Below are positions 32,517 through 43,536 of a DNA stretch of 64,000 nucleotides, in pieces. Position 1 is the first letter of the stretch, and the number at the start of each line of letters is the position of its first letter. Under the pieces are notes generated by a model. It made no database searches. It worked only from the letters and a program-made list of their open reading frames with translations, and was not told the DNA's origin. Made by a program: the position numbers and the translations under genes. Location of the stretch: the NCBI GenBank assembly GCA_028751875.1, contig CM054155.1, forward strand, positions 52,282,971-52,346,970. The letters run 5' to 3'. Source of the stretch: Rapana venosa. Taxonomy: Eukaryota; Mollusca; Gastropoda; Neogastropoda; Muricidae.

Positions 32517-32735
32517 GTCTCCTTCAGAAACGGACCAGATTTTTGTGTCGCACTGTGAGGAGGATCTGGAGCTGGCCCTGTCGCTGATGGGCATGCTGGA
32601 GTCTCAGGGCCTGTCCTGCTTCCTGCCAGAGAGGGATGTGCCCTCCGGCCCGGTCATGTACCCCATGGCTGACGCCCTGGTGGCCTGTCGTCGAGTGGTG
32701 CTGCTGCTGACCCCCCAGTACCTGGACACTAATCT
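32517..32735 (+). CDS. STING1: TIR-STING exon: first half of TIR domain
   Basis: The acceptor CTGCTTGCAG precedes a frame encoding DQIFVSHCEEDLELALSLMG (strand A and helix A, TIR box 1), then LSCFLPERDVPSG (box 2 and BB loop, with the RDxPxG pattern), ADALVACRR, and VVLLLTPQYLDTN (strand C). It ends after two bases of a leucine codon at the donor CT-GTAATG, the first unit of a 20-bp tandem repeat. Reading on would stop at TAA within two bases, so splicing here is required. The exon is clearly GC-richer than its flanks. Confidence 0.9.

Positions 32736-43536: not shown

Follow-up and report, generated by a model that had tools for sequence, protein, structure and literature searches.

The gene at the locus

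The stretch of DNA analysed here (the window: 64,000 nucleotides of the Rapana venosa contig CM054155.1, positions 52,282,971 to 52,346,970 of the forward strand, assembly GCA_028751875.1) carries a predicted sea-snail gene, rich in introns and apparently intact, in which a TIR domain is fused to a STING ligand-binding domain. An earlier sequence-only reading had proposed six short exons, each below 320 bp, joined in one frame between 32517 and 43536. Their coordinates, the GT-AG borders of all five introns and the open join of 409 codons, whose stop codon (43534-43536) falls within a simple repeat, were confirmed, and the proposed junction phases (2, 1, 1, 0, 1) were reproduced exactly. The introns were likewise found to be repeat-filled, with tandem arrays at 32733-33032, 38495-39148, 40461-42445 and 42854-43194 (Tandem Repeats Finder, TRF). 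A chance assembly, held from the start to be very unlikely, is excluded by tblastn with the orthologous Nucella protein, which matched five of the six exons singly, with E between 9.5e-30 and 4e-12, and reached only E 0.25 for the last one. The six exons are thus real, but they do not make the gene complete, since a first exon ending at 14542 had been overlooked. A gene starting at 32517 is ruled out because the exon there opens in the middle of a codon, with a single codon base, and an upstream exon fits it. The full gene is predicted to comprise seven exons and ~435 residues, with a coding span of 14466-43536, and its features are the following.

14256..14450, + strand: conserved basic segment (SRYRLKLVQFSLRYYRSVNK...) in the frame of exon 1, separated from the exon 1 ATG by the TAA at 14451-14453
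14466..14542, + strand: coding portion of exon 1, opening with the ATG that comes first after the in-frame stop and closing on two bases of a Trp codon split by the intron, donor GTAAGT; the real 5' end may differ
14543..32516, + strand: intron 1, 17,974 bp, GT-AG
32517..32735, + strand: exon 2, 219 bp, first half of the TIR domain (splice join, Pfam, tblastn)
32733..33032, + strand: tandem array, 20-bp unit x 15, whose first unit contains the exon 2 donor (CT/GTAATG), where the array starts (TRF, sequence)
34873..35051, + strand: exon 3, 179 bp, second half of the TIR domain, with the valine aligned to the SARM1 catalytic Glu
35899..35997, + strand: exon 4, 99 bp, linker LMPTGN between TIR and STING, then the first part of the STING domain
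38130..38362, + strand: exon 5, 233 bp, STING ligand-binding domain, with the serine aligned to human Arg232
40216..40399, + strand: exon 6, 184 bp, end of the STING ligand-binding domain
43220..43536, + strand: exon 7, 317 bp, short conserved end to ~VERDRL near 43287, then an unconserved, uncertain tail

When the N-termini of the Nucella and Babylonia proteins were compared with the window by tblastn, both matched 14256-14420 (E 0.048 and 0.008, respectively). The frame of this match extends to 14542, where the GTAAGT donor leaves the two bases needed by the exon at 32517, and the resulting join reads PPVQW/SPSETD, as against ALQW/SPSETD in Nucella. Translation from the ATG at 14466 could yield 435 residues. 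The basic segment with its closing stop (14256-14453) has a helical moment of ~0.45 and is annotated as coding in Nucella and Babylonia; here it may represent a 5' untranslated region or an upstream reading frame, or the stop may reflect either an error in the sequence or a genuinely shorter protein. At the other end, the ~80 residues that close the last exon are without a counterpart among the aligned relatives and the stop lies within the simple repeat, so that the C-terminus of the model is uncertain. All junctions are free of gaps in the Rapana-Nucella alignment, with gaps of one residue occurring a few residues away from junctions four and five.

The in-frame TAA at 14451-14453 is unexplained and weighs against the preferred reading of the gene. 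A decaying copy, complete in appearance and out of use, would account for this stop, which divides the conserved upstream segment from the remainder, and likewise for the 15-copy repeat starting from the splice donor of exon 2, the unconserved C-terminal tail and the valine at the TIR active site. Against this stand the six open exons with intact splice sites, the alignments to Nucella and Babylonia at 57-62% identity without a frameshift, the in-frame ATG that follows the TAA, and the serine at position 232, which is not a sign of decay in the Rapana copy because Nucella and Babylonia share it. We regard decay as very improbable.

Later 20-bp copies of the array at 32733-33032 also bear donor-like GTAATG sequences, and splicing from one of them would lead at once to a TAA and shorten the TIR domain. 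Two similar copies of an element resembling a short interspersed element, with a tRNA-like head (GGGATAGCTCAGTGG...), were noticed by eye in the introns of the gene, at 34410-34760 and 41425-41700.

Domain architecture

In the 409-residue product, Pfam places TIR_2 at residues 8-125 (59.2 bits, cut-off 28 bits) and STING_LBD at residues 146-315 (117.2 bits, cut-off 27 bits), so that both domains lie above their cut-offs; the older TIR model PF01582 gave 19 bits, under its cut-off of 21.3 bits. The proposed fusion of TIR followed by STING in one frame is substantiated by the agreement of Pfam, splice phases and orthologues. The claimed absence of a four-helix membrane region is corroborated by hydropathy, the highest 19-residue Kyte-Doolittle mean being 1.49 in the 435-residue model, against 2.45 and 2.85 for two membrane-STING controls; the remaining control, P0011, gave 1.47, and its annotated N-terminus looks mispredicted. 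The protein is accordingly predicted to be without transmembrane helices, with the reservation that extra exons within intron 1 are not fully excludable. The tail of vertebrate STING carries the TBK1/IRF3 motifs PxPLRxD and LxIS, neither of which had a match in the 435-residue model, whose tail is uncertain.

Relatives and number of STING genes

Three database proteins combine TIR and STING (E 1.6e-126 to 4e-85): those of Nucella lapillus (ACOMHN_019006, 62% identity to the Rapana protein) and Babylonia areolata (named 'stimulator of interferon genes protein-like', 57%), both database predictions, and P0003 (45%), which is probably derived from a transcript since its record of 1,524 bases is too short for introns like these. 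Both Nucella and Babylonia, the nearest relatives, belong to the Neogastropoda, in keeping with the molluscan and probably gastropod origin that had been read from the sequence alone. A profile search also recovers oyster proteins from Crassostrea (including C. virginica), Saccostrea and Ostrea. TIR-STING-type proteins are thus already in databases for two snails, and the Rapana gene would be a gastropod member of a molluscan TIR-STING family. Gerdol (2017), an overview of immune genes in gastropods and bivalves, is cited in PMC5869526 for a TIR-containing STING and in PMC9334734 for heterobranchs that lack STING. A literature search for 'TIR-STING' with 'gastropod' returned no paper, although that overview may mention a gastropod TIR-STING, and none was found on the Babylonia protein, Nucella lying outside that search.

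The Rapana assembly (2.28 Gb, 2004 contigs, with the window on C22) was searched exon by exon and the best candidates only were scored, an approach that divergent genes can escape. Within this scope, no second STING gene was found with any of three queries. The STING family hidden Markov model gave one match, which is the TIR-STING gene; the Nucella protein gave 19, five of them in this gene and 14 in or just beyond the TIR part; and the membrane-STING fragment 8ydn gave two, both in this gene and one of them weak (E 2.0). With the STING part of P0001 as query, only Nucella and Babylonia were matched and no gastropod membrane STING was recovered, which among 127 candidates is weak evidence of absence. 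STING is reported to be missing from heterobranch gastropods in a passage of PMC9334734.

The TIR active site

When the TIR domain alone was compared with solved chains, MyD88 and TIRAP were the best matches, followed by oyster TIR-STING, with SARM1 at E ~0.09. At the column of the catalytic SARM1 Glu642, where the two bacterial TIRs in the alignment (no bacterial TIR-STING was among its rows) both have Glu, the Rapana TIR has a valine, and the neighbouring Trp is replaced by leucine; the helix after the BB loop, considered as the site of the catalytic Glu, was dropped because the SARM1 alignment places the column elsewhere. We suggest that the TIR domain would serve as a docking platform rather than as an NADase. 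It could be argued instead that the protein works in the bacterial mode, in which ligand-driven assembly triggers cleavage of NAD+ by the TIR domain and the infected cell is killed or arrested. The domain order is that of bacterial TIR-STING, whose filaments are described as activating the TIR NADase in an excerpt of PMC9402430, and the Glu is kept in seven of the nine aligned TIR-STINGs, including those of Nucella, Babylonia and oysters. However, the Glu and its neighbouring Trp are substituted in Rapana, adaptor TIRs match best and SARM1 only at E ~0.09, and the TLR-type TIRs of the same genome (rows L009, L011, L015 and L017; minus-strand loci were left out of this residue comparison) also retain the Glu, which by itself therefore does not show NADase activity. 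We consider the bacterial mode improbable for the Rapana protein.

The STING pocket

Five pocket residues are retained (Tyr163, Tyr167, Arg238, Tyr240 and Glu260) and other pocket positions are changed. The column of human Arg232 holds a serine in Rapana, Nucella and Babylonia and a lysine in P0003, compared with arginine in all seven aligned oyster and non-mollusc STINGs. Such changes suggest that the pocket may prefer ligands different from 2',3'-cGAMP. The natural loss of both the NADase residue and Arg232 lets two questions be tested, namely the role of TIR in an animal STING and the manner in which STING switches ligand.

Comparison with known systems

The best match in both sequence and fold is the oyster TIR-STING (Crassostrea gigas CgSTING, PDB 6wt6/6wt7), which, like the Rapana protein, has an N-terminal TIR, a C-terminal STING, no membrane helices and an LxPxGN junction; the aligned oysters differ in keeping Arg232 and the TIR Glu, both lost in Rapana. 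Oysters have several STING-like proteins according to the profile search and to a portion of PMC9980059, as against the one found in Rapana. The Nucella and Babylonia orthologues share TIR, STING and Ser at position 232 with Rapana and differ in retaining the TIR Glu where Rapana has Val. Membrane STING (TMEM173) has the ligand-binding domain and the five retained pocket residues in common with Rapana, but possesses an N-terminal four-helix domain and a PxPLRxD/LxIS tail, in place of which the Rapana model has neither helices nor tail motifs and bears a TIR. The TIR-STING of the bacterial cyclic-oligonucleotide-based antiphage signalling system (CBASS) from Sphingobacterium faecium, SfSTING, also places TIR ahead of STING. 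It is a filament-driven NADase, as stated in part of PMC9402430, whereas Rapana has Val at the SARM1 catalytic column and a STING part that scores as animal STING, in a comparison to which bacterial TIR-STING was not aligned. A bacterial TIR-STING of CBASS is expected in an operon with a CD-NTase (a nucleotidyltransferase); the Rapana gene is spliced and lies on an animal contig of 58 Mb.

Origin of the fusion

The sequence-only reading had taken this gene to tie animal STING directly to the anti-phage signalling of bacteria. This proposition was not supported: PMC10732462 (PLoS Biol 2023) describes the oyster protein as an animal fusion convergent on the bacterial design, the Rapana TIR is closest, among solved chains, to MyD88/TIRAP, and SARM1 and two bacterial TIRs fall across an 82/85 branch (not starred) of a TIR tree of 20 rows, in which bacterial TIR-STING was not included. 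Seven of the 14 own-genome rows had been removed from this tree (four misextracted, one long-branched and two near-copies). It recovers the snail set including P0003 (99/98, starred) and the oyster set (99/99, starred), and places snail and oyster TIR-STINGs together (71/78, not starred). In an 18-row STING-domain tree, the nine TIR-STINGs fall on one side (93/91, not starred). Directly before STING, the motif L[LM]PxGN occurs in 10 of 10 rows of the TIR-STING type but in none of 10 other animal STINGs (20 of 28 proteins compared). That a snail orthologue shares its junction sequence with oysters suggests that the fusion is old within molluscs. Taken together, the trees and the shared junction favour a single old fusion, which, at moderate odds, probably predated the split between bivalves and gastropods.

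Three points weigh against a single fusion. In a first TIR tree, built from poorly extracted rows, snail and oyster TIR-STINGs did not fall on one side (grouping them was not rejected, approximately unbiased p 0.117); the STING tree had no molluscan membrane STING among its rows, so that common descent within molluscs, not one fusion, could explain its grouping; and a portion of PMC5869526 reports that oysters have membrane STING as well. It can be hypothesised that the fusion arose twice, once in snails and once in oysters, each time between an animal TIR and a molluscan STING, which would be consistent with TIR trees that lack full support for one group and with a snail-oyster identity of only ~26%. 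It would also agree with the part of PMC10732462 in which oysters are named as the animal example of TIR-STING, such eukaryotic proteins are called rare, and a recent convergence is preferred. Separate fusions are nevertheless unlikely in our view, given the domain order and junction common to all ten TIR-STING-type rows and the adjacency of the snail and oyster sets in both cleaned trees. The single old fusion that we prefer would thus depart from the 'recent' convergence in that part of PMC10732462.

Proposed function

We propose, as the likely reading, that the Rapana STING gene encodes a cytosolic TIR-STING adaptor of seven exons and ~435 residues, gated by cyclic dinucleotides through an altered pocket and belonging to the oyster TIR-STING family. 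The architecture, the open frame, the lack of membrane helices, the single STING gene found and the closeness to snail and oyster TIR-STINGs are read directly from the sequence; from these we infer ligand gating, TIR clustering, partner docking and gene induction. A cyclic dinucleotide, of microbial origin or from a cGAS-like receptor, would close the STING dimer, and the closed dimer would cluster the TIR domains. These could then dock TIR adaptors of the MyD88 type or, as has been described for oyster STING, TBK1, and the docked partners would start gene induction of the IRF/NF-kB type. Two observations speak against this scheme. CgSTING is reported not to act downstream of CgcGAS and to bind double-stranded RNA and DNA directly (PMC8218723), which misfits a simple line from cGAS to STING, and loss of NADase chemistry is not general, since Nucella, Babylonia and oysters keep the Glu. 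More tentatively, and with rather more doubt than confidence, it may be surmised that in neogastropods membrane STING was wholly replaced by one cytosolic TIR-STING that goes back to a single fusion before the bivalve-gastropod split, with a TIR that would dock partners under nucleotide control without cleaving NAD+, and with a pocket retuned away from 2',3'-cGAMP by the loss of Arg232.

A cGAS-like candidate and other features

The possibility of a genome without cGAS-like genes was rejected: among the seven matches of PF20266 to the assembly, one locus, L034, is cGAS-like. This receptor candidate lies at C23:11207500-11217400, with exons at about 2-538 and 3157-3480 of the locus that join in phase and carry a GS...ExD nucleotidyltransferase motif. 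It scores 24.3 bits with PF03281 (cut-off 24.1), its best solved match being 8gjw, cGAS-like receptor 1, and its open frame also contains, further upstream, a CxxC...HxxxxC stretch resembling a zinc finger. PF03281 matched the assembly at two places, one of them weak; the other, judged by eye, we take to be Mab21L-like. Further Mab-21_C matches lie above the family cut-off at C4:47007768 and C9:64149536 and below it at C14:39430443.

Elsewhere in the window, positions 8501-9000 are an assembly gap of 500 N. No Rfam family reached its gathering threshold in the window, and ARAGORN called a tRNA-Pyl (anticodon cta) at 19089-19176 that is most likely a tRNA-like repeat. A frame of 942 residues at 55003-57828, with endonuclease and reverse transcriptase matches, belongs to a non-LTR (long terminal repeat) retrotransposon, and a second reverse-transcriptase frame lies on the minus strand at 62633-63697.
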